From assembly GCA_937921595.1 (NCBI GenBank), contig CAKZTD010000259.1:1-32832 (forward strand): a stretch of 32,832 nt of DNA, read 5' to 3'. How positions within the stretch are numbered: the stretch's first letter is position 1; each line of letters begins with the position of its first letter. Under the pieces are notes generated by a model. It ran no database searches, was not told where the DNA came from, and worked only from the letters and a program-made list of their open reading frames with translations. The position numbers were made by a program, and so were the translations under genes. Below are positions 13,947 to 32,374 of this stretch, piece after piece. The DNA comes from an uncultured Saprospiraceae bacterium. GTDB taxonomy: Bacteria > Bacteroidota > Bacteroidia > Chitinophagales > Saprospiraceae.

Positions 13947-13958
13947 GTTTTTATATCT

Positions 13959-15453: not shown

Positions 15454-15544
15454 TTTTTTTATTCTAAATATTTCGACATTTTTTGGACAAGGTGTCACAC
15501 TAAGAAGTCACAATGTTCTACAAAGATTTCAAAAAAAGGTTCTA

Positions 15545-15755
15545 GCGTATTATACATTTTTCTCTGGTAGAATTTTAATTTTCAGTGTTCTACTCAATAT
15601 TTTCTGCTGGAATGAGTAAATGAGCGGATGAGTGAATATTGAGTGTAGACCTAAGATCTAATCTTATTTTTTTGACATTTAGGAGGTATTCACTCATTTA
15701 TGAATTCGCTCATTTGCTCATTTTTATATCGGTATTCAAAAGTGTACAATAGTTT
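15545..15755 (+). mobile_element. MITE-like element, copy 2, with 11-bp flanking direct repeat
   Basis: This 211-bp element lies in the orientation opposite to copies 1 and 3. The ends GTATTATACATTTTT and (inverted) CTATTGTACACTTTT form terminal inverted repeats. Subterminal arms of ATGAGTGAAT/ATTCACTCAT type lie at about 15611-15638 and 15689-15725. AAAAGGTTCTA occurs immediately outside both ends (15534-15544 and 15756-15766) and reads as a target-site duplication. No ORF is inside. It accounts for most of the 337-bp gap between the reductase and the enoyl-CoA hydratase genes. Confidence 0.8.
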
Positions 15756-15835
15756 AAAAGGTTCTATTAAAATAACAAAACTCTCAAGGAATAGTTCTTC
15801 GCCCTTTGCCCTATTAGCTTCTTGCTCACTTGTTT

Positions 15836-16618: not shown

Positions 16619-16670
16619 TATATTATTATTTATTTTTTTAAAATTCGCTGCGAAGATAGGTAGAAGCATT

Positions 16671-16796
16671 TTAATTTTCAGGCTTCAAGGTATAAATTGT
16701 TAGACCTTTCATAGGTTTATTAAACTGAGGAAAGAATTGAATAGAGAGGTATCCACTTTCAAATTCATACAGCGCAAATGGCCAATCACTAATCAC
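16671..16796 (-). CDS. Small 41-residue ORF coupled to the flippase gene
   Basis: A GTG-initiated frame overlaps the last 8 bp of the flippase gene and ends 53 bp before the hydratase start. The product has a composition typical of real protein (DWPFALYEFESGY, FFPQFNKPMKGL, ending in KPEN) and no low complexity. An in-frame TAA lies two codons upstream of the GTG, so it cannot be longer. It may be a coupled small protein or the tail of a gene whose front was lost when the flippase gene arrived. I do not recognise it. Confidence 0.4.
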   Translation of the reverse strand: MISDWPFALYEFESGYLSIQFFPQFNKPMKGLTIYTLKPEN

Positions 16797-18270
16797 GTTT
16801 TATAAATCGCCCTATACTCTTTTTCAAAATCTCATTAAACTCCGAGGAAAGATTAAAATAATAAGTGATCGAAATGTAAACACTCCCAATTACTATTGAT
16901 TTTATAAGAATATCTAAAACAGCAATATTGCTGGCAGGGATCATAACTCCAATAAGATAAGCCACTAATGCTACTACTAAAATCCACACCGTATTTTTAG
17001 AAAATGGCTGCATCTTGAATTTCCATTGGATGAAGATCAATTTTACAATATTATAAAGACTTAAAGAAAGTAAAGTCGCTAAGGCAACTCCGATAATTCC
17101 ATATTTCGGAATCAAAAGGATATTAGTAATAATATTAAAAACAGCCATGAGTAAAATCGCATAAAACCCGAATCGATAATGTTTCGAATAATTGATGATT
17201 TGATTATTTATACTCGTCCCCATATCCACTAATTTTGAAGCTCCTACCAAAAGGACTATGGCAACCCCTCCTATTAGATTCTCACCTTTCGGCATGATCG
17301 AAAACAAATCCTCAATAGATGCTGCAATACAAATAAACAGTAGCAAGCCAATCACCAAAAGATTCAAAGAAGAATTTTTATACAATTCTTTGATTGGAGT
17401 CATGTCTTTATTTTTCATCGCTTCTGCCACTACTGGACTAGCTATTTGATTAACCGCATTCGTAGGAATTGCGATTGTATTTGCAATGAAAGCTGAGATC
17501 GCAAAAATCCCCGTATTTTGAAGATCGATCAATGCGGTAATCATAAACGTATCAATCCGAAAAGCCAACATACTTCCCATGCTGCTAAAAAAGCTAAAAG
17601 TTGCAAAGCTTTTAATTTCATTAACTCGATCCTTGACCAACAAACTGAAATCTGGTTTCATATTCAATTGACCCAGCCATTTTATATACAAAACAATTCC
17701 GGTTACTGCCAAAGCAAAAGTTAAAATGATGCCGTAGACAATTATTTGTTCCGTAATCATACCCCAAATAAAAAGCAAGATCAAAATAGGTAAACTCAAT
17801 TTGATCAGATTCTGAAACAAAGTAGGAATGGCGATTCTTTTAAAATTCGAGCTATAATTATAAAACAACTGTTGAAAAGCAATAAGAATAGCTAATGGAA
17901 CTAAATAAGGTAGGTAAGCCTGATAAATAGGTTCTTTATCTGCAAATAGGTTATAAAATTGCTCTTTAAATAAAAGGCTGAATAGGATAAACAATAAGCT
18001 CCCAATAAAAACACCAGAAGTTAGAAAAAATAAAAAACCTGAATGCCCTTTCTTTTCATCTTTAAATTGTGGAAAAAATCGAATGGTTACTCCTCCAAAA
18101 CCAAGTAAAATAAATGGCGCAAACAAATAAGAAGTATCAATGACAAATCGAGCCAAGCCATAAACATCCGGATCTTGAGGATAAATAAAGATCATGCTGA
18201 TTGCAGCAATCCCTACCCCAATGTAATTAATCAGACTTTGTTTTATACTTTGTCGCTGTACAATACCCAT
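16789..18270 (-). CDS. Wzx-type polysaccharide flippase
   Basis: This is a 493-residue protein with about 12-14 hydrophobic helices over its whole length and a short charged C-terminus (IGRFIKRD). The start (VQRQSIKQSLINYIGVGIAAIS), the pattern around the first four helices and the total length match the oligosaccharide flippase branch of the MATE/MOP family, which moves lipid-linked glycan units across the inner membrane. It lies next to the pse operon but on the opposite strand, and is a plausible exporter for the glycan made there. It may be translationally coupled to the 41-residue ORF at its 3' end. Confidence 0.88.
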   Translation of the reverse strand: MGIVQRQSIKQSLINYIGVGIAAISMIFIYPQDPDVYGLARFVIDTSYLFAPFILLGFGGVTIRFFPQFKDEKKGHSGFLFFLTSGVFIGSLLFILFSLLFKEQFYNLFADKEPIYQAYLPYLVPLAILIAFQQLFYNYSSNFKRIAIPTLFQNLIKLSLPILILLFIWGMITEQIIVYGIILTFALAVTGIVLYIKWLGQLNMKPDFSLLVKDRVNEIKSFATFSFFSSMGSMLAFRIDTFMITALIDLQNTGIFAISAFIANTIAIPTNAVNQIASPVVAEAMKNKDMTPIKELYKNSSLNLLVIGLLLFICIAASIEDLFSIMPKGENLIGGVAIVLLVGASKLVDMGTSINNQIINYSKHYRFGFYAILLMAVFNIITNILLIPKYGIIGVALATLLSLSLYNIVKLIFIQWKFKMQPFSKNTVWILVVALVAYLIGVMIPASNIAVLDILIKSIVIGSVYISITYYFNLSSEFNEILKKSIGRFIKRD

Positions 18271-18357
18271 TAATTAGCGTCGATTTTGGCCCAAAGGTAG
18301 ATATTTAGGAATAAACAAGGAGTAATTAAAATTATTGAATATTTGCCCATTAATATT

Positions 18358-18553
18358 AAACTACTGTACACATTTGAATACCATCTTAGAAATGAGCGAA
18401 TGAATGAATTCGAAATGAGTGAATACCTCCAAAATGCAAAAAAAAGCTTTAGACTTAGTTTTTTCCGAATATTCACTCATTTGTTCATTCACTAATTCTG
18501 CTAAGAAGCATTAAGTGTAACACTAAATCTTATAGAATTTACCATAAAAGTGT
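18358..18553 (-). mobile_element. MITE-like element, copy 3
   Basis: The left end is AAACTACTGTACACATTT and the right end is the inverted AAAAGTGTATAGTAACTT. The subterminal ATGAGYGAAT / ATTCACTCAT arms lie at 18391-18424 and 18471-18494, and the orientation equals copy 1. Degenerate direct repeats (CATTAATAT and CATTAGCAT) flank it. It lies between the flippase start and the pse promoter. Confidence 0.7.
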
Positions 18554-18716
18554 ATAGTAACTTACATTAGCATATAAACTCCTCTCCCCTTTTCGTTCAA
18601 TTTAAGAATGCAGTAAACATCCAGTCAAATATGTCCATTTTACTGAAACATTTAGTCATAAAAACGATATAAATGTATCTAATGTTACGCCCCTAAATCC
18701 CTCAAAAACTAGATTA

Positions 18717-18747
18717 TTGCAATTGACATTCAGCTTTTATACCTTTG
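18717..18747 (+). promoter_or_regulatory. Promoter of the pse operon
   Basis: TTG (18717-18719), 20 bp, TACCTTTG (18740-18747) has the same spacing as the kdsA and peptide-gene promoters. It lies 85 bp upstream of the pseB start codon and is the only good match before the 12-kb gene run. Confidence 0.65.
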
Positions 18748-18832
18748 TCGGTATTATAAAGAATTTAAATATAAAAATATCTAAAAAAGCCTGTATTAAG
18801 GCTTGAATCAATTTTCAATAAAAATCACCTTC

Positions 18833-19870
18833 ATGATAGACCTTAATGGTAAATCCATTCTTATTACCGGCGGAACCGGTTCATTTGGAAAAATGTTTGT
18901 GCAGACCGTTTTAGATCGATTTCCAGATGTAAAACGATTAGTTATATACTCTAGGGATGAGTTGAAGCAGTTTGAAATGGCTCAAAAATTTCCTACTACG
19001 AAATATAAATCAATCCGTTATTTCATTGGAGATGTTCGTGATGCTGCTCGTTTTAAAAGAGCTTGTAAAGGAATTGAGATTATTATCCATGCAGCGGCAC
19101 TAAAACAAGTTCCTGCTGCAGAGTACAATCCTTTCGAATGTATTAAAACCAATGTGCTTGGTGCTCAAAATGTCATTGATGCAGCACTCGATACAGATGT
19201 AAAATCTGTTGTAGCTTTATCTACAGACAAAGCTGCAGCTCCTATTAATCTTTATGGTGCCACTAAGCTATGTTCTGATAAACTCTTTGTAGCAGCGAAT
19301 CGAATGAAAGGAGATCGTGATCTTGCCTTTTCTGTTGTTCGTTATGGAAATGTAATGGGTAGTCGAGGTTCTGTGATTCCATTTTTCATGAGCAAGAGAG
19401 CAGAAGGTGTCGTTCCGATTACGGATGATCGAATGACTCGATTCAATATCTCATTGGCTGATGCAGTTGAGATGGTACTTTTCGCAATTCATAATTCATG
19501 GGGAGGAGAAATTTTTGTTCCGAAGATTCCTTCCTACCGCATTACTGAATTAGCAGAAGCAGTATGTCCGGATTGTGAGCAAAAAGTAGTTGGTATCCGT
19601 CCTGGTGAAAAAATCCATGAGGAAATGATAACAGAGGCAGATTCCTACACCACTTTTGACCTAGGTCAATACTATGTAATCACACCTCAAGTTCCAATTT
19701 GGTCCATTGATAAATATTTAGAGCATTTCAATGCCTCAAGAGTAGAGCAAGGCTTTAGCTATAATTCAGGTACTAATGATGAGTGGCTAAGCGTTGAAGA
19801 AATGCGAACCTTGATCAAAGAACATGTTGATCCAAATTTTACAGTAGATGAAAAACATACCATACGGTAG
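18833..19870 (+). CDS. pseB: UDP-GlcNAc 4,6-dehydratase (inverting), PseB
   Basis: This is the first step of pseudaminic acid synthesis: it converts UDP-GlcNAc to the 4-keto-6-deoxy-L-arabino sugar. With the ATG at 18833 the protein has 345 residues; the TTG frame from 18803 adds an atypical N-terminus. The Rossmann motif GGTGSFG lies at 13-19, followed by YSRDELKQFEM (39-49). The catalytic set is D132-K133 (STDKAA) and Y141-x3-K145 (YGATK). The motif AALKQVPAAEYNPFECIKTN, typical of inverting dehydratases, is present at 88-107. The gene overlaps pseC by 23 bp. Confidence 0.96.
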   Translation: MIDLNGKSILITGGTGSFGKMFVQTVLDRFPDVKRLVIYSRDELKQFEMAQKFPTTKYKSIRYFIGDVRDAARFKRACKGIEIIIHAAALKQVPAAEYNPFECIKTNVLGAQNVIDAALDTDVKSVVALSTDKAAAPINLYGATKLCSDKLFVAANRMKGDRDLAFSVVRYGNVMGSRGSVIPFFMSKRAEGVVPITDDRMTRFNISLADAVEMVLFAIHNSWGGEIFVPKIPSYRITELAEAVCPDCEQKVVGIRPGEKIHEEMITEADSYTTFDLGQYYVITPQVPIWSIDKYLEHFNASRVEQGFSYNSGTNDEWLSVEEMRTLIKEHVDPNFTVDEKHTIR

Positions 19871-20993
19871 ACAAAATATTACCGATCAGGACATTCAAGC
19901 AGTTGTCGAAAGCCTAAAAGGCGATTTCATTACTCAAGGTCCTAAGATCCCGGAATTTGAAGAAAAGTTTTCCGAATACATCGGTTGTAAATATTCAGTA
20001 GCGGTTTCCAACGGGACCGCTGCTTTGCATTTAGCAGCTATGGCATTAGACGTTGATTCTTCTTCAAATGTCATCTGTAGTCCGATTACTTTTGCAGCTT
20101 CCAGTAACTGTATTTTGTATTGTGGAGGAAAAGTAACCTTTGTTGATATCGATCCAGATACGGCCACCATGGACATTGATGCGGTTCGAAATTTATTAGA
20201 AAATGCTCCCAAAGGCACCTACTCTGGGATCGTCCCAGTTGATTTCACGGGCTATCCTGTAAATTTAGAAGCTTTTAGAAAATTAGCGGATGAGTATGAC
20301 TTATGGATCATCGAAGATTCTTGTCATGCCCCCGGTGGATTTTTCAATGATAGTAATGGAGTGCAGCAAAATTGTGGTAATGGGAACTATGCGGATATCG
20401 CTATTTTTTCTTTCCACCCTGTTAAGCATATTGCTTGTGGAGAAGGCGGAATGATTACCACCAATAGTAAAGAGATTTACGAAAAGCTATTGATCCTCCG
20501 TACACATGGAATTACCAAACGTGCAGATCTAATGAGCGAGAATCACGGCGGTTGGTATTATGAAATGCAAAATCTTGGTTACAATTATCGGCTAACCGAT
20601 TTTCAAGCAGCCTTAGGAAGTTCTCAGTTAGAAAGAGCTCCAGAAGGATTGGATAGACGTCGAGCTATTGCAAAAAGATATGATGAAGCATTTGCAAATA
20701 CAGTGATCAAACCTTTACAAAGACATGATGGCCACGGTTATCATTTATATGTGATTCAGGTCGAAAATCGAAAAGAATTATACGACTATCTTCGAACTCA
20801 AAAAATATTTGCACAAGTACATTATATCCCCGTACATACACTTCCCTATTACCAGGGATTAGGTTTTGAAAAAGGAAGTCTTCCAAATGCAGAATCTTAT
20901 TATAAAAACTGCCTAAGTCTTCCAATGTATCCGACCTTGACTGATGAGGAACAAGAGTTTGTCATCGAGCAAGTCAAAAAATGCTGTCTATGA
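19848..20993 (+). CDS. pseC: UDP-4-amino-4,6-dideoxy-N-acetyl-beta-L-altrosamine transaminase, PseC
   Basis: This PLP-dependent DegT/AHBA-type aminotransferase puts the amino group on C4 of the PseB product, using glutamate. The 381-residue length is standard. The PLP lysine is K193 in SFHPVKHIACGEGG. The phosphate-binding SNGTAALHLA (54-63) and EDSCHAPGG (156-164) segments are present. The start overlaps the pseB end by 23 bp, and the stop overlaps the next start in an ATGA. Confidence 0.95.
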   Translation: MKNIPYGRQNITDQDIQAVVESLKGDFITQGPKIPEFEEKFSEYIGCKYSVAVSNGTAALHLAAMALDVDSSSNVICSPITFAASSNCILYCGGKVTFVDIDPDTATMDIDAVRNLLENAPKGTYSGIVPVDFTGYPVNLEAFRKLADEYDLWIIEDSCHAPGGFFNDSNGVQQNCGNGNYADIAIFSFHPVKHIACGEGGMITTNSKEIYEKLLILRTHGITKRADLMSENHGGWYYEMQNLGYNYRLTDFQAALGSSQLERAPEGLDRRRAIAKRYDEAFANTVIKPLQRHDGHGYHLYVIQVENRKELYDYLRTQKIFAQVHYIPVHTLPYYQGLGFEKGSLPNAESYYKNCLSLPMYPTLTDEEQEFVIEQVKKCCL

Positions 20994-21688
20994 AAAACCT
21001 CGCTATCATTCCGGCTAGAGGAGGCAGTAAACGTATTCCTGGAAAAAATATAAAGCATTTTTTAGGGAAGCCGATAATAGCTTATTCAATAGAAGCAGCT
21101 TTATCTTGTGGTTTGTTTGATGAAGTTATGGTTTCTACCGATAGTGATGAGATTGCGGAAGTAGCTAAAAAATATGGTGCTAAAGTTCCGTTTTTTAGAA
21201 GTAATAAAAATGCGGATGATTTTGCAACGACAGTAGATGTCTTGTTTGAAGTGTTAGAAAAATATGAAGAGCAAGGCATGAGTTTTAAAACGGGCTGTTG
21301 TGTTTATCCAACGGCTCCTTTTATAAATGGAGATACCTTGACCAAAGCATATCAACATTTTACAGAAAATAATTTTGATTCTGTTTTTCCGGTTTTGCGA
21401 TTTGAAGCTCCAATTCAAAGAGCTTTAAAATTAGGCAAAGACAATCGAGTCAGCATGTTTTATCCAGAACATCAAAAAAGTAGATCTCAGGATTTGGAAC
21501 CTGCCTTTCATGATGCAGGTCAATTTTATTGGTTCCGAATTGATCAACTATATGTCAATAAAAAACTATGGGCTCCAAACTCAGGTATGATTGAAATTTC
21601 TTCTATGGAAGGACAAGACATCGACAACCTCAAGGATTGGAAACTCGCCGAAATAAAATATAATTTGTTAAAAGATAACAAACATTAA
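20990..21688 (+). CDS. pseF: Pseudaminic acid cytidylyltransferase, PseF
   Basis: It activates pseudaminic acid with CTP to CMP-Pse, the donor for glycosyltransferases. The 232-residue protein begins with the nucleotide-binding motif IIPARGGSKRIPGKN and has the STDSDEIAEVAKKYGA, CVYPTAPFI and DAGQFYWFR segments of the CMP-NeuA/PseF family. I prefer the ATG at 20990 (ATGA overlap with the pseC stop codon) to the one three codons upstream at 20981. The stop codon overlaps the proposed ATT start of pseG. Confidence 0.94.
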   Translation: MKNLAIIPARGGSKRIPGKNIKHFLGKPIIAYSIEAALSCGLFDEVMVSTDSDEIAEVAKKYGAKVPFFRSNKNADDFATTVDVLFEVLEKYEEQGMSFKTGCCVYPTAPFINGDTLTKAYQHFTENNFDSVFPVLRFEAPIQRALKLGKDNRVSMFYPEHQKSRSQDLEPAFHDAGQFYWFRIDQLYVNKKLWAPNSGMIEISSMEGQDIDNLKDWKLAEIKYNLLKDNKH

Positions 21689-22742
21689 TAAGCCTTTAAA
21701 CATATTAATAAGAACCGATGCTTCCAATAAAATTGGACTAGGCCATGTTATGAGGGATCTAGTTCTTGCTGAACAATTTTCATCAAAAGGCCATCAAATT
21801 ACTTTTGCTTGTCTCCCTTTGGAAGGAAACGCTATTTCAAAAATCAAGGATAAAAAATACGCTGTCATTGAACTAGAAGATGGCAGCAAAGAGGAATTAG
21901 TTGAATGGATTAAAAGTCAACACATCGACCTCCTTATCATTGACCATTATCAAATTGAAAAACCTGAAGAGCTGTACATCCGTCAACAAACCAATACCTT
22001 AGTCTTTATCGTCGACGATCTCTATAAAGAACATGATTGCGATTTTATTTTAAACCATAATATCAGTGGGAACAAGGATCGATATGAAGGCAAAATACCT
22101 AAGGATTGCATCGTAATGGCAGGGCCTCAATATGCCTTGATTAGAAAGGAATTCCGAAATGCTGTAATCGCTCCTCGTGAAGTCGATTCTACTCAGTCAA
22201 TCCCTGTTTTCATCACTTTTGGCGGGAGCGATCCTACCAATTTATCAGAATTAGTGATTGATCATTTAAAAAAATTCCCTAATCTTTTACTCCATATATT
22301 CACAACAACCTCTAATTCTCATCTCGAATCTTTAAAAAACAAGGTAAATTCCCATAAAAATGTAGTTTTGCACATTAATGAAGCAGATTTAGCTTCAAAA
22401 ATGAAAACTTGTGCCTTTGCACTCGTATCACCATCAGTGACTTGTCTCGAAGCGATTTTTATGGAACTCCCATTGATTGCCATCCAAGCAGTTTCGAATA
22501 CGCAAAACACATTTAATTATTTAAAAAAGCATGACTTATTTGCTTTAGAAGTGGCAGAAATCGATACCTTGGAAAAGTATATTCGCCAATTATTGGAACC
22601 GGATTTTTACGATTCTTACTACCAGTATACGAAGCAAATTAAAGATCAGAATTTTAACACACAAAATAATAGTATCTATGAGCTTGTCATTACCAGAGCG
22701 AACGGAAAAACCGAGGAAGTCAGGAATCACCATGATTCTTGA
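21684..22742 (+). CDS. pseG: UDP-2,4-diacetamido-2,4,6-trideoxy-beta-L-altropyranose hydrolase, PseG
   Basis: It removes UDP from the diamino sugar by C-O cleavage. The conserved N-terminus RTDASNKIGLGHVMRDL lies partly before the first ATG (21750); in PseG the His of G-x-GH is the catalytic base, and an ATG start would delete it. The only in-frame stop upstream is TAA at 21669-21671, and no ATG, GTG or TTG follows it before the motif. The best start is ATT at 21684, overlapping the pseF stop codon in ATTAA, which gives 352 residues. The GT28-like C-terminal part has FGGSDP and SPSVTCLEAIFMELP. The 3' end overlaps comA by 65 bp. Confidence 0.9.
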   Translation: MNKPLNILIRTDASNKIGLGHVMRDLVLAEQFSSKGHQITFACLPLEGNAISKIKDKKYAVIELEDGSKEELVEWIKSQHIDLLIIDHYQIEKPEELYIRQQTNTLVFIVDDLYKEHDCDFILNHNISGNKDRYEGKIPKDCIVMAGPQYALIRKEFRNAVIAPREVDSTQSIPVFITFGGSDPTNLSELVIDHLKKFPNLLLHIFTTTSNSHLESLKNKVNSHKNVVLHINEADLASKMKTCAFALVSPSVTCLEAIFMELPLIAIQAVSNTQNTFNYLKKHDLFALEVAEIDTLEKYIRQLLEPDFYDSYYQYTKQIKDQNFNTQNNSIYELVITRANGKTEEVRNHHDS

Positions 22743-23427
22743 GAAAGGAATGAATCCTACCACTTTCAGAGATCACCTAAAACATTACCACGACAAGATT
22801 GATATTATAAAATTTACCTCCGGTATCGGAATGGTTGATACAGGGATCAAGGAAAAGTTAGCAACTTGTAAAGAGTTTGGTATAGAGACTTACTTTGGTG
22901 GAACATTGTTTGAAAAATTCTATCATGCAAAAGATTTGGATGGCTACGTTCAATTGTTGGAGGACTATGGGATCACAACATTAGAAATCTCTGATGGTGT
23001 TGTCGAAATACCAATGGAAGAAAGAAACCAACTCGCTCGTGACCTAAAATCTAAGTTCAAAATTTACATGGAGATTGGTTCAAAAGATACCGCATTTGTA
23101 ATGCCTCCATCCAAGTGGATTTACCAAATGGAAAAAGCTTTAGAAGCAGGCGTAGATTTTCTAATTGTTGAAGGAAGAGAAAGTGGAACCTCTGGTTTAT
23201 ACCGTGGATCGGGTGAAATGAGAACAGGATTATTAGAAGAAATCATCAATAATATTGACATAGAAAAAATAATCTTTGAAGCACCTAATAAAAAATCTCA
23301 GTGCTACTTGATCAATACCATTTCTCCAAATGTCAACCTTGGAAATATCCCTTTGTTTGATATCAATATTTTGGAAGTTCAGCGACTAGGTCTACGATAC
23401 GAGACCTTTTTTAATGAAAAAAAATAA
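22678..23427 (+). CDS. comA: Phosphosulfolactate synthase, ComA
   Basis: It adds sulfite to phosphoenolpyruvate to give (2R)-phospho-3-sulfolactate, the first step to sulfolactate (known from coenzyme M synthesis in methanogens and from Bacillus spores). The 249-residue length is normal. The N-terminal signature LPERTEKPRKSGITMILEKG is present, as are DIIKFTSGIGM, ETYFGGTLFE, ISDGVVEIP and IVEGRESGTSGLYR. The protein lies inside a pseudaminic acid operon, where it is not a usual member. The start codon lies within the pseG 3' end; homologues also begin just before LPERTEKPR. Confidence 0.93.
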   Translation: MSLSLPERTEKPRKSGITMILEKGMNPTTFRDHLKHYHDKIDIIKFTSGIGMVDTGIKEKLATCKEFGIETYFGGTLFEKFYHAKDLDGYVQLLEDYGITTLEISDGVVEIPMEERNQLARDLKSKFKIYMEIGSKDTAFVMPPSKWIYQMEKALEAGVDFLIVEGRESGTSGLYRGSGEMRTGLLEEIINNIDIEKIIFEAPNKKSQCYLINTISPNVNLGNIPLFDINILEVQRLGLRYETFFNEKK

Positions 23428-23432
23428 GACAC

Positions 23433-24470
23433 TTGACCACAATTTTAATTACTGCAGCAGGGAGTGGAGGCACCAATGCTTTACTCAACACCGTAAACAA
23501 CGATGCGTATCGATTCATCGGTACTAACATCGATCGTTACAAAGCGGCTTGCTCTGTCACCGACAAGACTTACCTCGTTCCAAGAGCAACAGAGGAAGAA
23601 GCTTACATTGAAGCCATCAATAAAATAATAGCGATTGAAAAACCAACGCTTTTAGTACCGAATAGTGATATCGAGGCAGAGATTCTTGCCAAGCATATCG
23701 AACGTATAAATACAAGCGTTTTTCTACCGAAATACGAAGTGATCGTTATCCTGCAAGACAAATATTTAATGTATGAGTTTTGTATAAAAAACGAGATCAA
23801 TGTAGCTAAGACAATGCCTTTAAAAAGCATTAATGATCTAGATAATATTCCAGAACACTTTTCAGATTTTCCACTATGGGCAAGAATCAGAACGGGTGCT
23901 GGATCTAAGCATACCTCTAAGATATTTTCAGTAGAACATGCAAAGATTTTCATCCAACATGCTACGACGGCATACAATGTAGAGGTCGAAGATTTCACCA
24001 TTTCAGAATACCTACCTGGAGATGATTATGCGGTAATGACCCTTTGGAAAGATGGTGAATTGGTTTTAATAAAAATGGCTCATCGAGCAGCTTATTTTGG
24101 CCTTCAAGGAGAATCGCCTCCTTATGTAATCAAATGTACTTATTCTCAAGAGATCGTAGATTTTGCTAAAGAAACCGTCAAAAAGTTTAATCCAAAAGCA
24201 AATGGTGTTTACAATCTTGACATCAAGTTTGATAAAAACAATGCCATCGCATTAACAGAAATCAATATCGGACGTTTCTATTATAACATGCCCATTTTTA
24301 ATCTGACTGGAAAGAACAATGCTTTTCAGGTATTCTTAGATGTCGCATTAGGAAATGAACATGGCTATAATTTAACTGATTGGGAAGAGAAATTTTTCAT
24401 TCGTGAAATGGATAATGCGCCTCATGTTTTCACTCAGGAAGAACTAAATCAAAGAGTAATCGATTTATGA
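23433..24470 (+). CDS. ATP-grasp ligase of the sulfolactate/Pse module
   Basis: This is a 345-residue ATP-grasp protein related to carbamoyl-phosphate-synthase-type and PylC-type ligases. It has an N-terminal pre-grasp fold (TILITAAGSGGTNALLNT), a mixed strand with R151 (WARIRTGAGSK), the EYLPGDDYAV motif (192-201) and the metal-binding segment NLDIKFD...TEINIGRF (261-282). Such enzymes activate a carboxylate as acyl phosphate and join it to an amine. Set between comA and comB, the carboxylate is probably sulfolactate, and the amine probably the C4-amino group of the PseC product; this is inference. The start codon is TTG, 5 bp after the comA stop codon. The end overlaps comB in an ATGA. Confidence 0.85.
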   Translation: MTTILITAAGSGGTNALLNTVNNDAYRFIGTNIDRYKAACSVTDKTYLVPRATEEEAYIEAINKIIAIEKPTLLVPNSDIEAEILAKHIERINTSVFLPKYEVIVILQDKYLMYEFCIKNEINVAKTMPLKSINDLDNIPEHFSDFPLWARIRTGAGSKHTSKIFSVEHAKIFIQHATTAYNVEVEDFTISEYLPGDDYAVMTLWKDGELVLIKMAHRAAYFGLQGESPPYVIKCTYSQEIVDFAKETVKKFNPKANGVYNLDIKFDKNNAIALTEINIGRFYYNMPIFNLTGKNNAFQVFLDVALGNEHGYNLTDWEEKFFIREMDNAPHVFTQEELNQRVIDL

Positions 24471-25162
24471 TTATAAATATTTTTCAAGGTAATGAACCGA
24501 TTGGAGTAAAAGGAGATGTCAATGTAATCATTGATGTGATCAGAGCTTTTACCACTGCTCATACTGCATTTAAAAAAGGAATCCAAAAAATATATTTGGT
24601 CAATGAAGTTGATCAAGCGATGAATCTTCGAAAAGAAAAAGAAAACCTCATTTTAGTTGGCGAAATCGATGCCTATCCTATTCCAGGATTTGATTTTACC
24701 AATTCACCAAATGCTTTGCAAACCACTGACCTGGAATTAGATGGAAAGGAGCTGGTTCAAAAAACAACCAATGGGGTCAAATCCGTTTTAAATAATTTGG
24801 ATGCTCAATATATTCTGGTTACTGGTTTTTCAAATGCTGATCCAATTATAAAATATATTCAATCTTTAGAAAACATTCAAACGGTCAATTTGATTGCTTC
24901 GCATCCAACAGGTGATGAAGATTTAGCTTGTGCCGAATACATCAAAGCCAAGCTCAATCAAGAAGAAATTTCAATTCCTGTAATGATGGAAAGAGTCAGA
25001 AATTGTGAAGCTGCTCAAAAATTTTACACCAAAGAAATGTTTGACGAAGAAGACATAAACATGGCCGCACAGATTGATCATGATGCAAAATTCGTTATGG
25101 AAGTACAATGCCAGAATGATTTGCCCTACATTGAGAAGGTTTACTTGGAAATGAGTGAATGA
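24467..25162 (+). CDS. comB: 2-phosphosulfolactate phosphatase, ComB
   Basis: It removes phosphate from the ComA product to give 3-sulfolactate. The 231 residues contain the family motifs IDVIRAFTTAHTAF (22-35), VGEIDAYPIPGFDFTNSP, KTTNGVKSV and TGFSNADP. It overlaps the ATP-grasp gene by 4 bp. The last three residues (MSE) and the TGA stop codon lie inside a degenerate MITE-like repeat (copy 4), so the original C-terminus may have been replaced. No ComC or sulfolactate dehydrogenase follows, so sulfolactate itself looks like the end product used here. Confidence 0.93.
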   Translation: MIINIFQGNEPIGVKGDVNVIIDVIRAFTTAHTAFKKGIQKIYLVNEVDQAMNLRKEKENLILVGEIDAYPIPGFDFTNSPNALQTTDLELDGKELVQKTTNGVKSVLNNLDAQYILVTGFSNADPIIKYIQSLENIQTVNLIASHPTGDEDLACAEYIKAKLNQEEISIPVMMERVRNCEAAQKFYTKEMFDEEDINMAAQIDHDAKFVMEVQCQNDLPYIEKVYLEMSE

Positions 25163-25250
25163 GTGAATTCATTAATGAGTGAATATCCCTCCCAGCTGTA
25201 AAGGGAACAAACTTAGAAATTATTAGCTGATCCTATGGGCATAGCATTAA
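25150..25250 (+). repeat. Degenerate MITE-like element, copy 4
   Basis: Two ATGAGTGAAT arms and the CCCTCC core of the family are present (25150-25195), followed by a core partly similar to copy 5 (AAACTTAGA and ATTATT words). The right inverted arm is not found. The repeat supplies the comB stop codon. Confidence 0.5.
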
Positions 25251-25405
25251 ATATTAAATTAATTCGGCAGCCAAAGGTTAGGGGAACGGCCTTTTACTTT
25301 TTAATGAAAATTAATTTAAAATCCGTTAAAAGTTATAAACTGTTTGAGCCAAAAATAGTGAATAAGGAAAGAAAGAGATGAAGTATACATTCTTGAGTTT
25401 TTTGG

Positions 25406-25457
25406 TTCTTTTTGTGTCAAGTCCTAGATCCCGATTTTATGTCGGGGACAAAAAGAA
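25406..25457. repeat. Long hairpin upstream of pseI
   Basis: An outer perfect stem TTCTTTTTGT (25406-25415) / ACAAAAAGAA (25448-25457) encloses an inner stem CCCGA / TCGGG (25430-25434, 25442-25446). It lies 46 bp upstream of the pseI start codon in an otherwise gene-free 341-bp stretch (25163-25503). There is no T-run on either strand right after the stem. It may affect mRNA stability or expression between comB and pseI, or be another small palindromic element. Confidence 0.45.
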
Positions 25458-25503
25458 AAGAGAAAAATAAAGTGGTTTTAAAATTTAATAAATTAAATTT
25501 TAT

Positions 25504-26562
25504 ATGAACGATACTCAAATGAAGTCCATTGATTTTGAACAACTGAAAAAAGGCAATCATACCTTTATCATTGCGGAACTTTCCGCTAATCACAATGGAC
25601 GATTGGATGTGGCACTAGCAACCATCAAGGCTGCTAAACGCGCAGGTGCAGATGCGATTAAGCTTCAGACTTTCAAGCCTGAAACCATCACCCTAAACGT
25701 AGATAGTGAGTATTTTTATGCAAACCCAAATGGCCCTTGGGCTGGTACACGTTTATTCGATCTTTATAAAAAAGCATTTACTCCTTGGGAATGGCATGCT
25801 GAACTTTTTGCAGCAGCAAAAGAAGAAGGATTACTTTGCTTCTCGTCTCCTTTTGATAAAACAGCCGTGGATTTTTTAGAACAATTTGATCCTCCAGCTT
25901 ATAAAATTGCTTCTTTTGAAATCACCGATATTCCATTGATTCGCTATGCAGCTTCAAAGGGGAAACCGATGATTATTTCTACTGGAATTGCAACAGAGGA
26001 AGACATCGAATTGGCGATCGCAACTTGCCGAGAAGTTGGCAATCACGAAATCGCTATTTTAAAATGTACTTCTCAATATCCTGCTCCGCCAAAAGAAGCT
26101 AGGCTGGCAACGATTCCTCAAATTGCGAAACAGTTCAATGTACTCTCTGGATTATCTGATCATACCCTAGGAATTGAAGCTCCGGTTATTGCCGTAAGTC
26201 TTGGAGGTAAAATTATCGAAAAACATTTTATTCTGGACAAATCCATTGGTGGTCCTGACGCTGGTTTTTCTTTGGATGAAAAAGAATTTACGGCGATGGT
26301 TCAAGCAGTTCGAAATGCGGAATTGATGATCGGTGAACATAGTTTTGAGCTGAATGAAAAAACCAAGCAAAGTAGAAATAACAGACGATCTCTTTTCGTT
26401 AGTGCAGATATCAAACAAGGGGAATTAATTACGGAAACGAATATTCAATCCGTACGTCCTGGCCAAGGCTTACACCCGAAACATTATGAGGAAGTACTTG
26501 GTAAAAAAGCTAAAAAAGATCTTGCCGCTGGTACGCCTTTGAGTTTTGATGATTTAATATAA
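25504..26562 (+). CDS. pseI: Pseudaminic acid synthase, PseI
   Basis: It condenses phosphoenolpyruvate with the free 6-deoxy-diamino-L-altrose to form the nine-carbon pseudaminic acid. The 352-residue length fits. It has the NeuB domain (IIAELSANHNGRLDVALA near 22-39, KLQTFKPETITL, SSPFDKTAVDFL, ISTGIATEEDIELAI, LSDHT) and the PseI-type segment EKHFILDKSIGGPDAGFSLD, which distinguishes it from sialic acid synthase. A C-terminal SAF (antifreeze-like) domain covers about 290-350. It is separated from comB by 341 bp containing a repeat and a hairpin, but stays on the same strand. Confidence 0.94.
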   Translation: MNDTQMKSIDFEQLKKGNHTFIIAELSANHNGRLDVALATIKAAKRAGADAIKLQTFKPETITLNVDSEYFYANPNGPWAGTRLFDLYKKAFTPWEWHAELFAAAKEEGLLCFSSPFDKTAVDFLEQFDPPAYKIASFEITDIPLIRYAASKGKPMIISTGIATEEDIELAIATCREVGNHEIAILKCTSQYPAPPKEARLATIPQIAKQFNVLSGLSDHTLGIEAPVIAVSLGGKIIEKHFILDKSIGGPDAGFSLDEKEFTAMVQAVRNAELMIGEHSFELNEKTKQSRNNRRSLFVSADIKQGELITETNIQSVRPGQGLHPKHYEEVLGKKAKKDLAAGTPLSFDDLI

Positions 26563-26738
26563 AAATGAGCGAATGAGTAAATTTATAAATGAGTGAATGC
26601 CCTCTTAAATATAAAAGAAACAAGCTCTGTACTTAGATGTTCTCTAATTATTCACTCATTCTTTCATTCACTCATTTTGATAAGAATATTGAATAAAGCA
26701 CTAAAAATAAAATTGCTCTCAGAAAAATCTATATAAAA
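26558..26738 (+). repeat. MITE-like element, copy 5, truncated at the left
   Basis: The ATGAGCGAATGAGTAAAT arm (26565-26582) and the inverted ATTCACTCATT arms (26649-26677) are intact. The right part (GAATATTGAATAAAGCACT, CAGAAAAATCTATATAAA) matches the right flank of copy 2. The left terminal repeat is missing because the element abuts the pseI stop codon. It accounts for most of the gap before the methylase gene. Confidence 0.65.
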
Positions 26739-26811
26739 TAAATGGAGTCCAGAAACCATTCAAAACGGGGCGAAACCGAAAAGCCAAATGAGTAGGACAA
26801 AATAATAACAC

Positions 26812-27435
26812 ATGAGTTTTACAACTGAACAAGAAACTTTTTGGGCTGGTGATTTCGGCAATGATTATGTTGATCGAAATAATATCCATGAAAGCATTGG
26901 CCGAAGAACGGCAGTTCTTTCTAAAATCATTAGTCGTACTAGAGATGCTAATTCCTTTTTAGAATTTGGAGCGAACATCGGACAAAATCTTGTAGCATTA
27001 AGAAACTTAAAACCTAATTGCGAATTAAGTGCAATTGAAATCAATGCAAAAGCAAGAGAGACTTTAAAAACAATTCCCAATACAAATATATTCGAAGGTT
27101 CTATCTTTGATTTTGAGTCAGCACAACTTGGACAACATGATTTCACGTTCACTTCTGGAGTTTTAATTCACATCAATCCAGATAAATTGGACGAAGTGTA
27201 TACCAAGATGTATGAATGTTCAAAAAAGTATATTTTAGTAAAAGAATATTACAATCCTAAGCCAGTAGAAGTTAGCTACCGTGGTCATACCGAAAGATTA
27301 TTCAAAAGAGATTTTGCGGGTGATTTAATGGACAAGTACCCTGACTTAGAATTAGTAGATTACAAGTTCCAATACCATAGAGATTATAATTTCCCAATGG
27401 ATGATTCTACTTGGTTTTTATTGAAAAAGTCGTAA
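26812..27435 (+). CDS. Pseudaminic acid biosynthesis-associated methylase
   Basis: This is a 207-residue methyltransferase matching the small family (TIGR03587 type) that occurs next to pse genes. The N-terminus TEQETFWAGDFGNDYVDRN is typical. The SAM-binding segment is FLEFGANIGQNL (49-60), with LSAIEINAKA after it and FTSGVLIHINPDKL near residue 110. It probably methylates pseudaminic acid or one of its substituents; the position is unknown. In this operon a hydroxyl on the proposed sulfolactyl group is one option, which is inference. Confidence 0.85.
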   Translation: MSFTTEQETFWAGDFGNDYVDRNNIHESIGRRTAVLSKIISRTRDANSFLEFGANIGQNLVALRNLKPNCELSAIEINAKARETLKTIPNTNIFEGSIFDFESAQLGQHDFTFTSGVLIHINPDKLDEVYTKMYECSKKYILVKEYYNPKPVEVSYRGHTERLFKRDFAGDLMDKYPDLELVDYKFQYHRDYNFPMDDSTWFLLKKS

Positions 27436-27445
27436 TAAAGCAAAA

Positions 27446-28342
27446 ATGGAAAAAGTAAAAAACAATTATACCGTACTCGCTAGCAAAGATGGAATCGATA
27501 TCGTAGACGATCATGAATTGGGATATATTCATGTCGATCCGATACCTTCTTCTGAAACATTGACTAAGCTTTATGAAGATGAATATTTCCAAATCGATAA
27601 GAAGGAATATTTTGAAAAGGCAAAGCGAGATGAAGAATGGAATAATCTAAATTTCCAGGATAAATTTACTTTTTTCGAAGAGCAAATAGGTCGAAAAGGT
27701 TCCGTTCTAGACATTGGTTCAGGCTCTGGACATTTTCTAGCTTTCGCTAAAAAATCTGGTTGGACTTCTAAAGGAATCGAACCTTCACCTATGGCTTGCA
27801 ATTTTTCAAATGAAGAACTAGGCCTTGATGTCGTGAATGGTTTTTATAACGAAGAAACGGCCAGCCAATTAGGGACCTTCGATGTGGTACATCTAAGAAA
27901 CGTTTTGGAACACTTGCCAAATCCATTGGAAATTTTGGAGCTCTGCAAAAGCAATCTCAAAGATGGTGGCATCATCTGCGTTAGTGTTCCTAACGATTTT
28001 TCTCCTTTTCAAAAGATCGCTACTCAGGAACTCGATGTGCCACAATGGTGGATCGTCCCTGACCATCATCTCAATTATTTCAATCCTCAATCCTTGGCGC
28101 ATGTCCTCGAGTCCACCGGATACAAAGTGACTCGAAAAGAATCCTCTTTTCCTTTGGATATGTTCTTGGTAATGGGCGATAATTATATTGGCAACGGAAC
28201 GATTGGAAAAGAGAGCCACCAAAAAAGAAAAGCTTTCGACCTGCGATTAAGCAAATTCGATAATAATCTAAGAAGAGATCTTTATCAATTTTTTGCAGAA
28301 AAAAATATCGGTCGAGAGTGTATTGTATATGCGGTTAAGTAA
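27446..28342 (+). CDS. Class I SAM-dependent methyltransferase of the pse operon
   Basis: This is a 298-residue protein with an N-terminal region of about 80 residues and then a UbiG-like methyltransferase domain. The SAM motif is VLDIGSGSGHFLAFAKK (87-103), followed by GIEPSPMAC, FDVVHLRNVLEHLPNPLEIL and LKDGGIICVSVPN. The C-terminal part (DVPQWWIVPDHHLNYFNPQSL) is common in methyltransferases of glycan clusters. It starts 10 bp after the first methylase, so they are co-transcribed. The substrate is probably a sugar or sugar substituent; an exact function is not visible. Confidence 0.82.
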   Translation: MEKVKNNYTVLASKDGIDIVDDHELGYIHVDPIPSSETLTKLYEDEYFQIDKKEYFEKAKRDEEWNNLNFQDKFTFFEEQIGRKGSVLDIGSGSGHFLAFAKKSGWTSKGIEPSPMACNFSNEELGLDVVNGFYNEETASQLGTFDVVHLRNVLEHLPNPLEILELCKSNLKDGGIICVSVPNDFSPFQKIATQELDVPQWWIVPDHHLNYFNPQSLAHVLESTGYKVTRKESSFPLDMFLVMGDNYIGNGTIGKESHQKRKAFDLRLSKFDNNLRRDLYQFFAEKNIGRECIVYAVK

Positions 28343-28371
28343 TTTCCAACTTTGCTCGAATTGACAAATTA

Positions 28372-29853
28372 ATGAAAGTTTTATTTTATTCCAATCAAGG
28401 TCTTGCGCCATTACATCTAGGTATTGAATTAGAAAATCTAGAAAGATTAAAAGCTGAAGGGCATGAGGTTTTTATTGTAAAATGCAATAACAAACTTGGT
28501 GGCTGTTATTTTAATCCTTGTCATAATCTTTTAGGTTGTGCGATTTGCGAAGCAAGAAGTGATGTCTTTCATAAAAAAATAAATGTCCAAAAAGAGCAAG
28601 TCTATTCCTTAAAAAATTATCCAGAAGCAGAAAAGGTAAATCTTCCTCATTTTAAAAATCTAGAAGAATTATTAGACTATAAATATGATGGCGTTTCCTT
28701 AGGTCGAGGCGTTGCTTCCTCGATTATTTCTCTTAGAAGAGATGCAGATATCAATAGCAATAATGAAAATGCTTTCATTGATTTTCAATTGCGAATGGCT
28801 ATCAATGTTCATCTCAATTTCACTCATTTCATTAAAGAATTCAAACCGGATGTTCTTTATTTTTTCAATGGTCGATTCGCCGAATGCTTTCCTTTAATTG
28901 GACTTGCAGAAAAGCACAATCTTCCGTACACCGCTATGGAAGTTTCCAGTTCGAAAAAACGGTTCGAGCTTTTTGAAAACAGTCTTCCTCATAGTATAAA
29001 AAAACGAGAGCAAAATCTTGAAAAAAGATGGAGTGAATCAGATCCAAACACGCGTGATGAAATTGCACAAAAATGGTTTGAAGAAAAAAGAGGAGGAACC
29101 ATTAAAACAGGCATTGTTTACACCGATGCTCAAAAAGCCAATCAGCTTCCAGAAGGTTTTGATCCATCCATTTTAAACGTAGCTATTTTCAACTCTTCCG
29201 AAGATGAAATGAAGGTCATCGAAGAATGGAAATTAGATCTTTATCAAACTCAAAACGAGGTCATTGAAAAAGTGGCAAAGCATTTTAAAGGCCACCCTAA
29301 TATTCATTTCTATTTAAGGGTTCATCCTAATCTTGGAAAAGTGAATAATGCTCAAAGTCGTGGAATTGAAAATCTAAAATTTGATAACCTTACGGTAATT
29401 CCACCCGCTTCATCAGTTGATACTTATGCTTTAATGTTAGCTTGTGATAAATCATTATCCTTCGGTTCTAACACCGGCATCGAAGCAACTTATTGGCAAA
29501 AGCCTTCTATCCTCTTTGGAAAATCTTTCTATCAAATACTTGATTGTGTTTACCATCCAGAAAGCTATGAAGCTTTATACCAACTGATTCAAGATCCCGA
29601 CTTAAAACCTAAATCAAAATCTTCTACTTATAAACATGCTTATTACGTAAGCACCTATGGTCGTCCGTTTAAGCATTTCGACTATGATGGAAAATTCAAC
29701 AGTCATTATCGAAAAGAAAAAATGGAACGTATTTACCCAAGGACGGTTTTGTACTTTTTTAAATATTTGTACAACTTCCCAAAATGGATAAAATATAACT
29801 ACATTGTGCGTCGAAAGAGCATCTTCAAATCCAATATTTGGAAACTCCGATAA
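28372..29853 (+). CDS. GT-B-like glycosyltransferase, capsule-transferase type
   Basis: This is a 493-residue protein with an N-terminal GT-B-like start (KVLFYSNQGLAPLHLGIELE). Its C-terminal signature is SFGSNTGIEATYWQKPSILFG (363-383), like the SS-G-EA-K-P-I-G motif of capsule polysaccharide and Kdo transferases (KpsS/KpsC type). A donor such as CMP-Pse is plausible, given the operon. Four cysteines, C45-x4-C50-x5-C56-x2-C59, lie in the N-terminal domain and could bind a metal or an Fe-S cluster; this is unusual for a glycosyltransferase. The last about 60 residues are basic and aromatic, which suits membrane association. Confidence 0.68.
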   Translation: MKVLFYSNQGLAPLHLGIELENLERLKAEGHEVFIVKCNNKLGGCYFNPCHNLLGCAICEARSDVFHKKINVQKEQVYSLKNYPEAEKVNLPHFKNLEELLDYKYDGVSLGRGVASSIISLRRDADINSNNENAFIDFQLRMAINVHLNFTHFIKEFKPDVLYFFNGRFAECFPLIGLAEKHNLPYTAMEVSSSKKRFELFENSLPHSIKKREQNLEKRWSESDPNTRDEIAQKWFEEKRGGTIKTGIVYTDAQKANQLPEGFDPSILNVAIFNSSEDEMKVIEEWKLDLYQTQNEVIEKVAKHFKGHPNIHFYLRVHPNLGKVNNAQSRGIENLKFDNLTVIPPASSVDTYALMLACDKSLSFGSNTGIEATYWQKPSILFGKSFYQILDCVYHPESYEALYQLIQDPDLKPKSKSSTYKHAYYVSTYGRPFKHFDYDGKFNSHYRKEKMERIYPRTVLYFFKYLYNFPKWIKYNYIVRRKSIFKSNIWKLR

Positions 29854-29860
29854 GTGAAAA

Positions 29861-31195
29861 TTGTTTAAAAAATCGATCTTGAAGCAATCATCCAAAAAGA
29901 AAGTTTTAATCATTACTTACTACTGGCCACCCAGTGGAGGAATAGGAGTTTTGAGATGTCTAAAGATTGCAAAATACCTGAGGGATTATGGTTGGGAGCC
30001 AATCATCTACACTGCTAAAGATGCACACTACCCTACTATCGATCACACCAATGAAAAAGATATCCCAGAAGATTGTACAATTTTGAAAAACAAAATCTGG
30101 GAGCCTTACCATATTTATAAATTCATTACTGGAAAAAAGAAAGACTCTAATGTCAATGATGTCCTGATGTCTATGGATCAAAAAGCAGGAATCGCCCACA
30201 AGCTTTCCGTTTGGATTCGCAGTAATTTTTTCATTCCAGATGCCAGAGCTTTGTGGATAAAACCTTCTGTAAAATTTCTATCTGCTTATCTAAAAGAAAA
30301 CCCAGTGGACGCAATGTTTACCTGTGGACCACCACATACCAATACGCGAATTGCGACTTTATTAAAAAATAAATTTGGGATTCCATATCTATCCGATTAT
30401 CAAGACCCTTGGACGCAGGTTGATTATTTCAAGCAACTTAATTTGACAAGCTGGGGATTAAAAAAACATCAACGTCTAGAGCAAGAAGCTTTTCAGGCAG
30501 CAGATGCGACGACCATCGTTAGTGAGTTTTGGAAAAAAGATTTAGCATCTATCGGTGGAAGAAACATCAATGTCTTATACTGGGGATATGATCCTGATGA
30601 TTATAAAAACATAACACCGATTATTGATCAAAAGTTGACTCTTTCTCACCTCGGAATTATGGGGCATGATCGAAATCCAAAAGTACTTTTCCAAGTCATC
30701 AAAGAACTGAACAATGAACTTCCTGGCTTTGAAAATGACTTCGAATTGAAACTGGTTGGACAAATTGATTTTTCGGTAAAAGAAGAATTTCAAAAGGCAG
30801 GTATCGAAAAAAATGTAAACTTTATCGGGCCTGTTTCAAGAGGCGAAGCCTTGCAAATGACCTGTAATAGTAATGCACTTTTATTACTGCTCAACCAACA
30901 GGATAATGCTCAAGGACGTGTTCCGGGGAAATTTTTCGAATACTTAGCTGCTCAAAGACCGATCATGGTGCTCGGTCCTACGGATGGAGATGTCGCGATG
31001 ATTACGGAGAAAACAAAACGTGGAAATTCTTTTAATTACAATGATCATACTGGCATTAAGAAAATGCTGAGCGACTTGTATGCACAATTTAAATCCGGTG
31101 ATTTAAAGCAATCTTTAGATGAAAATATTGAAGAATATTCTCACCCGATACTTACTGGAAAAGTTGCTGGTTTATTAGATAAGATATCGAAGTAA
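29861..31195 (+). CDS. Family 4-like glycosyltransferase
   Basis: This is a 444-residue GT-B glycosyltransferase. The N-terminal motif is YYWPPSGGIGVLRCLKIAKYL, and the C-terminal donor site has GKFFEYLAAQRPIMVLG with the glutamate spaced as in GT4 enzymes. The segment MFTCGPPHTNTRIA, YLSDYQDPWTQ is common in glycan-cluster glycosyltransferases. The start is TTG at 29861 (another in-frame TTG at 29879); no ATG is near. It begins 7 bp after the previous gene and is the last gene of the pse operon. Confidence 0.87.
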   Translation: MFKKSILKQSSKKKVLIITYYWPPSGGIGVLRCLKIAKYLRDYGWEPIIYTAKDAHYPTIDHTNEKDIPEDCTILKNKIWEPYHIYKFITGKKKDSNVNDVLMSMDQKAGIAHKLSVWIRSNFFIPDARALWIKPSVKFLSAYLKENPVDAMFTCGPPHTNTRIATLLKNKFGIPYLSDYQDPWTQVDYFKQLNLTSWGLKKHQRLEQEAFQAADATTIVSEFWKKDLASIGGRNINVLYWGYDPDDYKNITPIIDQKLTLSHLGIMGHDRNPKVLFQVIKELNNELPGFENDFELKLVGQIDFSVKEEFQKAGIEKNVNFIGPVSRGEALQMTCNSNALLLLLNQQDNAQGRVPGKFFEYLAAQRPIMVLGPTDGDVAMITEKTKRGNSFNYNDHTGIKKMLSDLYAQFKSGDLKQSLDENIEEYSHPILTGKVAGLLDKISK

Positions 31196-31253
31196 TTAAT
31201 TTGTAAACATAAAATAAGTTATCTAGTTTTACATTTTTCAAGAAAGCAATATA

Positions 31254-31324
31254 TGTGCTCTAATGTGTTTTATGTGTTTTCTAAAATGCGTTTATTCGAA
31301 CCACATAAGTCACATTAGGGCACA
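31254..31324. repeat. Imperfect 71-bp palindrome between convergent genes
   Basis: Two 23-bp arms (31254-31276 and 31302-31324, starting TGTGCTCTAATGTG and ending CACATTAGGGCACA) pair at 20 of 23 positions around a 25-bp loop. It lies between the genes ending at 31195 and 31359. No T-run follows, so it is not a plain terminator, and its sequence differs from the MITE-like family. Confidence 0.55.
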
Positions 31325-31358
31325 CAGAAAATTTATTCATTGTCCGAATTTAAATTAA

Positions 31359-32360: not shown

Positions 32361-32374
32361 TATCAAACTCTACT

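Follow-up and report, generated by a model that had tools for sequence, protein, structure and literature searches.

A ComA, phosphatase and ATP-grasp cassette among the pseudaminic acid genes of Saprospiraceae, and its possible role in making a sulfonated sugar

The canonical pathway to pseudaminic acid, as in Campylobacter and Helicobacter, runs through PseB-PseC-PseH-PseG-PseI-PseF, and the ComA and ComB families serve quite different ends, namely coenzyme M synthesis in methanogens and a sulfolactate route in Bacillus spores. The question raised here is why a comA gene, a gene for an ATP-grasp ligase and a comB gene should lie together inside the pseudaminic acid operon of an uncultured Saprospiraceae bacterium. 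The stretch analysed, called the window below, is the entire contig C259 (CAKZTD010000259.1) of 32832 bases, from a genome of 8.04 Mb in 465 contigs. We think it probable that the three genes make up an acyl cassette, in which the acid made by ComA and freed by the phosphatase would be amide-linked by the ligase to the amine made by PseC, in place of PseH. Our best guess for the acid, somewhat favoured over others, is 3-sulfolactate, a name that comes from family membership.

The operon and the proposed chemistry

On the plus strand of the window the genes follow each other as pseB-pseC-pseF-pseG-comA-ATP-grasp-comB-pseI, and then come a Pse-associated methylase, a second methyltransferase and a possible glycosyltransferase. 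All five of PseB, PseC, PseF, PseG and PseI exceed their NCBIfam equivalog cut-offs. The inverting UDP-GlcNAc 4,6-dehydratase gene pseB (18803..19870) scores 521.5 bits with TIGR03589 (cut-off 407.75), pseC (19848..20993), for the aminotransferase making the free 4-amine, 463.3 bits with TIGR03588 (cut-off 423.5), pseF (20981..21688), for the CMP-pseudaminic acid synthetase, 306.9 bits with TIGR03584 (cut-off 205.7), pseG (21750..22742), for the UDP-sugar hydrolase, 192.8 bits with TIGR03590 (cut-off 153.55, the match beginning at model position 19), and the pseudaminic acid synthase gene pseI (25504..26562) 499.5 bits with TIGR03586 (cut-off 340.25). Five of the six enzyme genes of the canonical pathway are thus present in one run; unlike in that pathway, no PseH or other GNAT gene, nor any acetyl- or formyltransferase gene, was found among the operon genes, and comA, the ATP-grasp gene and comB occupy the acyl slot.

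The phosphosulfolactate-synthase family gene comA (22678..23427; PF02679, 244.3 bits, cut-off 25) overlaps the 3' end of pseG by 65 nucleotides (nt) and is separated by 5 nt from the gene of the ATP-grasp carboxylate-amine ligase (23433..24470; PylC-like_N, 34.6 bits, cut-off 27), which in turn overlaps the 2-phosphosulfolactate phosphatase family gene comB (24467..25162; PF04029, 129.9 bits, cut-off 26) by 4 nt. A preliminary description of this DNA had placed the three genes, contiguous or overlapping, between pseG and pseI, and coordinates, Pfam matches and spacing all agree with it. It had also placed them under one promoter, which was not confirmed, since 341 nt separate comB from pseI and the latter may therefore have its own promoter. 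Judged by their spacing, the genes from pseB to comB are likely to be co-transcribed, and a match to a Bacteroidota promoter consensus lies upstream of pseB at 18717-18747.

From the gene order, the protein families, the residues kept and the recurrence of the trio, all of which are observed, we infer the following chemistry in each of its steps, together with the nature of the acid and the nitrogen that accepts it. The comA-ATP-grasp-comB genes would stand in for PseH in pseudaminic acid synthesis: ComA would join sulfite to phosphoenolpyruvate, giving (2R)-2-O-phospho-3-sulfolactate, ComB would strip the phosphate from it, and the ATP-grasp enzyme would use ATP to activate the carboxylate of sulfolactate and couple it as an amide to the PseC product at its 4-amino group. 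This nitrogen would become N-7 of pseudaminic acid, and PseG, PseI and PseF would convert the sulfolactyl sugar into a sulfonated pseudaminic acid, activated with CMP and destined for a surface glycan. We suggest the PseC product as acceptor because it is the only amine known to arise in the operon and is normally acylated by PseH.

Recurrence of the cassette in relatives

The strongest evidence comes from related genomes. When 19.8 kb of the window was compared at the DNA level with five relatives, both flanks were present in two congeners, G920 and G864. At this site G920 (locus L188) carries pseB-pseC-pseF-methyltransferase-pseG-comA-His_Phos phosphatase-ATP-grasp-pseI, with its five pse genes over the equivalog cut-offs; G864 has a different cassette with a NeuB-like gene, which is not a pse cluster, and a ComA search of this genome gave no match. 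The further cassettes surfaced only through a ComA search within the family, where 6 of 289 genomes have a match. G986 (L200) has pseB-pseC-pseF-pseG-comA-His_Phos-ATP-grasp-pseI next to the same left flank, and in G928 (L201) comA-His_Phos-ATP-grasp adjoins pseC-methyltransferase-pseG-pseI on the opposite strand. In G916 (L199) the same three genes belong to a glycan cluster that also encodes a DegT aminotransferase and a PF02719 dehydratase, and pseI had no match in the 20 kb fetched there. The ComA of G946 (L202) was not counted with the clade, as it clusters with the class-wide ComAs and its gene is at a contig end.

The ComAs of the window, G920, G986, G916 and G928 form one clade with a support of 97/89, in a midpoint-rooted tree in which the branch of the window is long. 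ComA, a phosphatase and an ATP-grasp ligase are in tandem in all five members, with the three genes overlapping or no more than 14 nt apart (stop codons not counted). Four of the five cassettes are in or beside pse genes, and three of them (window, L188 and L200) lie between pseG and pseI. An NCBIfam check of the pse proteins in L188, L200 and L201 covered ten proteins. Nine of them exceed the equivalog cut-off, and only the PseG of L200 falls short (130.8 bits, cut-off 153.55). The pseG-like frame of this locus (8823-9869, minus strand) has an in-frame stop at codon 268, which may be a broken gene or a draft error.

What varies is the partners of ComA. The phosphatase is ComB in the window and His_Phos_1 in the other four, whose histidine phosphatases are 41-57% alike, are unrelated to ComB by BLAST and have phosphoglycerate mutase and CobC-like phosphatases as their nearest PDB chains. 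The ligases are of three kinds, one shared by G920, G986 and G928 (45-75%), one in G916 and one in the window; between kinds, BLAST aligns the ligases of the window and G916 with 25% identity over 231 residues (E 0.001), and the other pairs give no real match. The ligase of L201 has an LAL_C2 domain. The constant part of the cassette is, as far as sequence can tell, a functional one: a ComA, a phosphatase and an amide-type ligase beside aminosugar genes. Since unrelated enzymes have been exchanged within a constant neighbourhood, each of them may well do its textbook job on the same intermediate.

The preliminary description had suggested a genome survey for comA-ligase-comB next to pse genes. 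In this exact form the trio was found only in the window, and it is the functional trio that recurs in or beside pse genes; the window-type cassette looks acquired and rare in its exact form. As for the larger generalization, we hold the chances to be about even that exchangeable cassettes, each with a ComA-type synthase, one of two phosphatases and one of three ATP-grasp ligases, sulfolactylate pseudaminic acid and further bacterial aminosugars at an amino nitrogen, replacing PseH and giving the first sulfonated nonulosonic acids, and that they were assembled apparently on three occasions, each with its own kind of ligase, one of the sites being a variable surface-glycan locus.

ComA as such is common in this class, where 244 of 295 genomes have it, mostly as a single copy, and ComA family membership was therefore rejected as proof of sulfolactate. 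Around the 30 best-scoring class-wide ComA loci (at most 1.5 kb on each side) there was no ComB, His_Phos or cassette ligase in any (0/30), and a search of viral contigs with the ComA of G920 confirmed no relative.

The same comparison bears on the idea that the presence of comA and comB in the pse operon is accidental and that they belong to a sulfolactate metabolism of another kind, for an osmolyte, a spore acid or coenzyme M. These families do serve such pathways elsewhere, and in the window both are over their Pfam cut-offs and have 1u83 and 1vr0 as nearest solved relatives, but the entire trio lies within the pse operon and the four clade cassettes in or beside pse genes have exchanged partner enzymes; in contrast to the ComAs of coenzyme M synthesis and of spores, theirs make up a distinct glycan-linked clade that has drifted. 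The ComC family (sulfolactate dehydrogenase, PF02615) has no match in the own genome at E 1e-5, whereas 4 of 14 control genomes match, among them Methanocaldococcus jannaschii; there is thus no coenzyme M route via ComC in this genome, which has one ComA match (E 1e-10) and one ComB match (E 1e-8). We regard a separate metabolism as very improbable, and return to the acyl cassette.

The three enzymes, the acid and the acyl slot

The start of comA at 22678 agrees with the N-terminus LPxRTxKPR that is common to ComA relatives. The closest PDB chains are 1u83 (E 3.6e-51) and 1qwg (E 6.2e-40), and the identity is 39% to each of the two solved ComAs and at the median 42% to 30 class-wide ComAs; with the archaeal equivalog model TIGR03849 the protein stays under the cut-off (203.7 against 280). 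Of 45 positions at which 32 other aligned ComAs are invariant, it retains 36. A barrel is predicted with a pLDDT (predicted local distance difference test) of 88.6, and K45, E103, E132, K136, E165, R167, E168, E201 and K205 (window numbering) are among the retained residues that the model places in or just after the barrel strands. By its family, the protein is a candidate for activity with phosphoenolpyruvate and sulfite.

ComB has 1vr0 as its nearest PDB chain (E 1.5e-14), a structure that according to PMC2954221 was solved with (2R)-3-sulfolactic acid. It retains 15 of 16 near-invariant residues in a comparison of 30 sequences, made up of 27 loci and three solved chains after two of 29 loci had been dropped for having no usable frame, and it scores above the Pfam cut-off and under the NCBIfam equivalog cut-offs. 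In 182 of 394 other genomes of the phylum comB has distant matches only (E 1e-8), the best with E 2.1e-16 and 31% identity.

The ligase is predicted with a pLDDT of 91.6 to have the ATP-grasp fold, and three ATP-grasp models match it under their cut-offs. The top Foldseek hits of the model are 2pn1, the L-amino acid ligases RizA and BL00235, biotin carboxylases and GAR synthetase (best E 5e-18), and a profile built from 20 relatives matches 2pn1, D-Ala ligases and an L-amino acid ligase. The predicted fold is shared with RizA, BL00235 and BacD, although the identity to these is only 12-18%. T275, E276 and N278 are invariant in all 20 aligned proteins, and E276 and N278 form the E-x-N motif, which we take to bind metal. 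The fold of the model speaks for ATP-dependent activation of a carboxylate, without naming the substrates.

Relatives of the ligase are found in at least 22 loci on genomic contigs and in 6 on viral contigs, and the flanks fetched around these 28 hold no comA or comB at E 1e-6. Three relatives occur at E 1e-20 among 394 other genomes of the phylum, none with an adjoining comA within the 1.5 kb fetched, and a search of plasmids and phages gave no match at E 1e-5. In L047, L048 and L065 the relatives are near enolase-superfamily (MR_MLE) proteins, with FMN_red in two of these, and in L040, L041 and L057 they adjoin a HAD phosphatase (by Pfam in L057, by sequence appearance in L040 and L041); such neighbours would suit a family of ligases that use acids produced by the adjoining genes.

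A number of results weigh against the proposed cassette, and we set them out here together. The first concern its composition and distribution. The gene order in the window is ComA-ligase-ComB, against ComA-phosphatase-ligase in the other four, within the order the ATP-grasp gene of the window is confined to one genome in 298 (the 297 others have no match at E 1e-15), and no gene for sulfite supply was noticed among the window proteins scanned, the rest of the genome not having been searched for one. Of 247 genomes examined in the class, 44 have a PseI above the cut-off, the own genome among them, and in the other 43 pse regions, several of which are cut by contig ends, neither comA, comB nor a ligase relative was found (tblastn, E 1e-4).

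The second group concerns the acyl slot, and here the case from a missing PseH turns out to be a modest one. The PseH model has 22 weak matches in the own genome, none of them over the cut-off, and a GNAT encoded elsewhere in the genome could serve; just 1 of the 44 PseI genomes has a PseH that exceeds the TIGR03585 cut-off. With profiles built from members of these same pse clusters, the 43 other regions contain a GNAT in 30, a formyltransferase in 8 and an epimerase-ATP-grasp fusion in 3, and 11 have none of the three. It counts in favour of the cassette that profiles for PseH-like GNATs or formyltransferases gave no match in L188, L189, L199, L200, L201 or the window, but the GNAT profile is narrow and misses a Pfam-positive GNAT at 12505-12993 of the window. 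A common cluster-type GNAT has its best match in the own genome at 28 bits; among 14 other PseI genomes, 4 have it with 211-277 bits and the remaining 10 lack it as well. The 14 were hand-chosen from the 43 and tested together with two family members. We have therefore rejected the absence of PseH as a stand-alone argument. What fills the acyl slot varies in this class, with ATP-grasp proteins among the occupants, and clusters without a GNAT are not rare.

The GNAT at 12505-12993 was itself considered as a PseH and rejected, having no BLAST match (E 1e-3) to 25 GNAT open reading frames of pse clusters and adjoining DUF6428 and ArsR. A look-alike, cut by the end of the region, stands at the same flank in G864, whose cassette there is not pse. 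The adjacent GNAT, DUF6428 and ArsR regulator genes lie at 12505-13946 on the minus strand, and that they are an arsenic-related group is a guess.

The weak GNAT matches favour a different acceptor, with sulfolactate joined to another amine, for instance an amino compound or a different amino sugar in the glycan, and pseudaminic acid acetylated by an enzyme encoded elsewhere. It also speaks for this that the cluster of L199 has a DegT aminotransferase and no pseI match, so that the cassette is not tied to pseudaminic acid, and that 13 of the 28 loci with ATP-grasp relatives have a DegT-type aminotransferase in the same fetched locus. The position of the cassettes among pse genes, with three between pseG and pseI and the PseC product as the sole known amine of the operon, points the other way, as does the window GNAT, which lies outside the operon. 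Another acceptor is in our view decidedly unlikely.

The third group concerns ComA and thereby the acid. The window protein is changed at 9 of the 45 invariant positions, including D20 to E22 and G45 to T47 (first numbers from 1qwg), and the model puts these two at the ends of barrel strands 1 and 2, the strand ends being the catalytic face of such barrels. The four clade mates have lost E171 (to A or N) and K209 (to P), both of which are kept in the window. Because invariant residues have drifted in this way, the nucleophile may not be sulfite, and the clade ComA could follow the same cassette logic with another nucleophile on phosphoenolpyruvate, or with another enol phosphate, the N-acyl group being some 3-substituted lactate or a glycerate-like acid. 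The drift is clade-wide, with D246 changed to E and T238 to V, S or A in five of five members as compared with the other aligned ComAs, and with four of the five lacking E171 and K209; for this alignment the G928 protein, whose open frame continues upstream, was trimmed at its N-terminus. A phosphatase of the phosphoglycerate-mutase type in the place of ComB suits some 2-phospho-lactate and not only phosphosulfolactate, and an N-glyceroyl pseudaminic acid occurs in Tannerella (PMC6120980). In the window, however, E171 and K209 are in place, and the phosphatase is a ComB whose nearest solved relative holds sulfolactate. Enolase already makes 2-phosphoglycerate, so plain glycerate would need no ComA. 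We consider another acid unlikely, if worth keeping in mind. By its ComA residues and its ComB the window is, on present sequences, the best candidate of the five for true sulfolactate.

The preliminary description had held that sulfolactate is amide-linked to the nonulosonic acid or its precursor. The part of this that stands is an acid derived from ComA and placed on an aminosugar, for which the recurrent cassette argues and, weakly, the missing acyltransferase; the identity of the acid did not gain beyond family membership.

Precedents and the surface-glycan locus

No description of a sulfolactate or ComA cassette with pseudaminic acid was found in the open-access literature searched, and the preliminary description likewise knew of no described system of this kind. 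The one precedent we found for a sulfonate amide-linked to a bacterial surface glycan is, according to PMC5207245 and PMC5207246, that of the type B flagellin of Clostridium difficile, a sulfonated peptidylamido-glycan in whose synthesis mutants implicate an ATP-grasp gene. Taurine, alanine and glycine make up the cap there, and the glycan that bears it has Fuc3N at its end. The likeness would be a surface-glycan sulfonate put on by amide chemistry with an ATP-grasp gene; unlike the taurine of C. difficile, the sulfonate proposed here would be an acid made by ComA, in a pseudaminic acid operon. A flagellin-modification cluster of Shewanella likewise includes an ATP-grasp gene, according to PMC3765264.

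The pseudaminic acid of Tannerella forsythia is given in PMC6120980 and PMC6388019 as Pse5Am7Gra, with the glyceroyl at position 7, and the gene for this group is termed "elusive" in the former. A hydroxy-acid N-acyl group at position 7 would be common to both systems, but it is glyceroyl rather than sulfolactyl in Tannerella, whose cluster has a pseH. Within the class, the epimerase-ATP-grasp fusions and the formyltransferases of other pse clusters are possible alternative N-acyl or N-formyl enzymes, and they come without ComA or ComB. The fusions combine an epimerase with a PylC-like ATP-grasp domain in L142 (by Pfam), in L161 and L165 (by similarity) and, by profile only, in L134, and may offer a further route to an acylated pseudaminic acid. 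A sulfotransferase-like gene (L154, 4173-5213) and a PhyH dioxygenase gene (L160, 5510-6325) also lie within pse clusters elsewhere in the class.

If the proposal is true, a bacterial sialic-acid-like sugar would carry a strong-acid sulfonate, altering surface charge and recognition, and ComA would have a role beyond coenzyme M and spore chemistry. The N-acyl step of a nonulosonic acid would be replaceable by a cassette that makes its own acid, and ComA with a phosphatase and an ATP-grasp ligase beside an aminotransferase would be a search rule for more such sugars. The cassette also suggests where to seek the genes for hydroxy-acid groups, such as the glyceroyl of Tannerella.

Downstream of pseI the window continues with the pseudaminic-acid-associated methylase gene (26812..27435, plus strand; TIGR03587, 281.5 bits, cut-off 112.05), the second methyltransferase gene (27446..28342, plus strand; PF13489, 102.7 bits), which likely belongs to the same glycan locus, and the possible glycosyltransferase gene (28372..29853, plus strand), which has no Pfam match and scores 34.8 bits with the NF046086 BFO_1060 family, under the cut-off of 200. 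At the other end of the run, a conserved PseG N-terminus (ILIRTDASNKIGLGHVMR) is encoded in frame 5' of the first ATG (21750) of pseG, within 21669-21752 and downstream of a stop, and no ATG, GTG or TTG is available for it in this interval; either pseG has a non-standard start codon or there is an assembly error. Contamination of the contig was considered and rejected, as both flanks are collinear with two congeners, with 76% and 72% DNA identity in the best stretches.

The window from 13000 to 32800, L188, L191 and L200 represent one chromosomal site near wzx, an enoyl-CoA hydratase gene and redox genes, where the glycan cassettes differ among the relatives, a variable surface-glycan locus. 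The genome of the window has a second nonulosonic acid locus on another contig (L179, contig C116 of G000), with NeuC, NeuB-like, NeuD-like and PseF-like genes.

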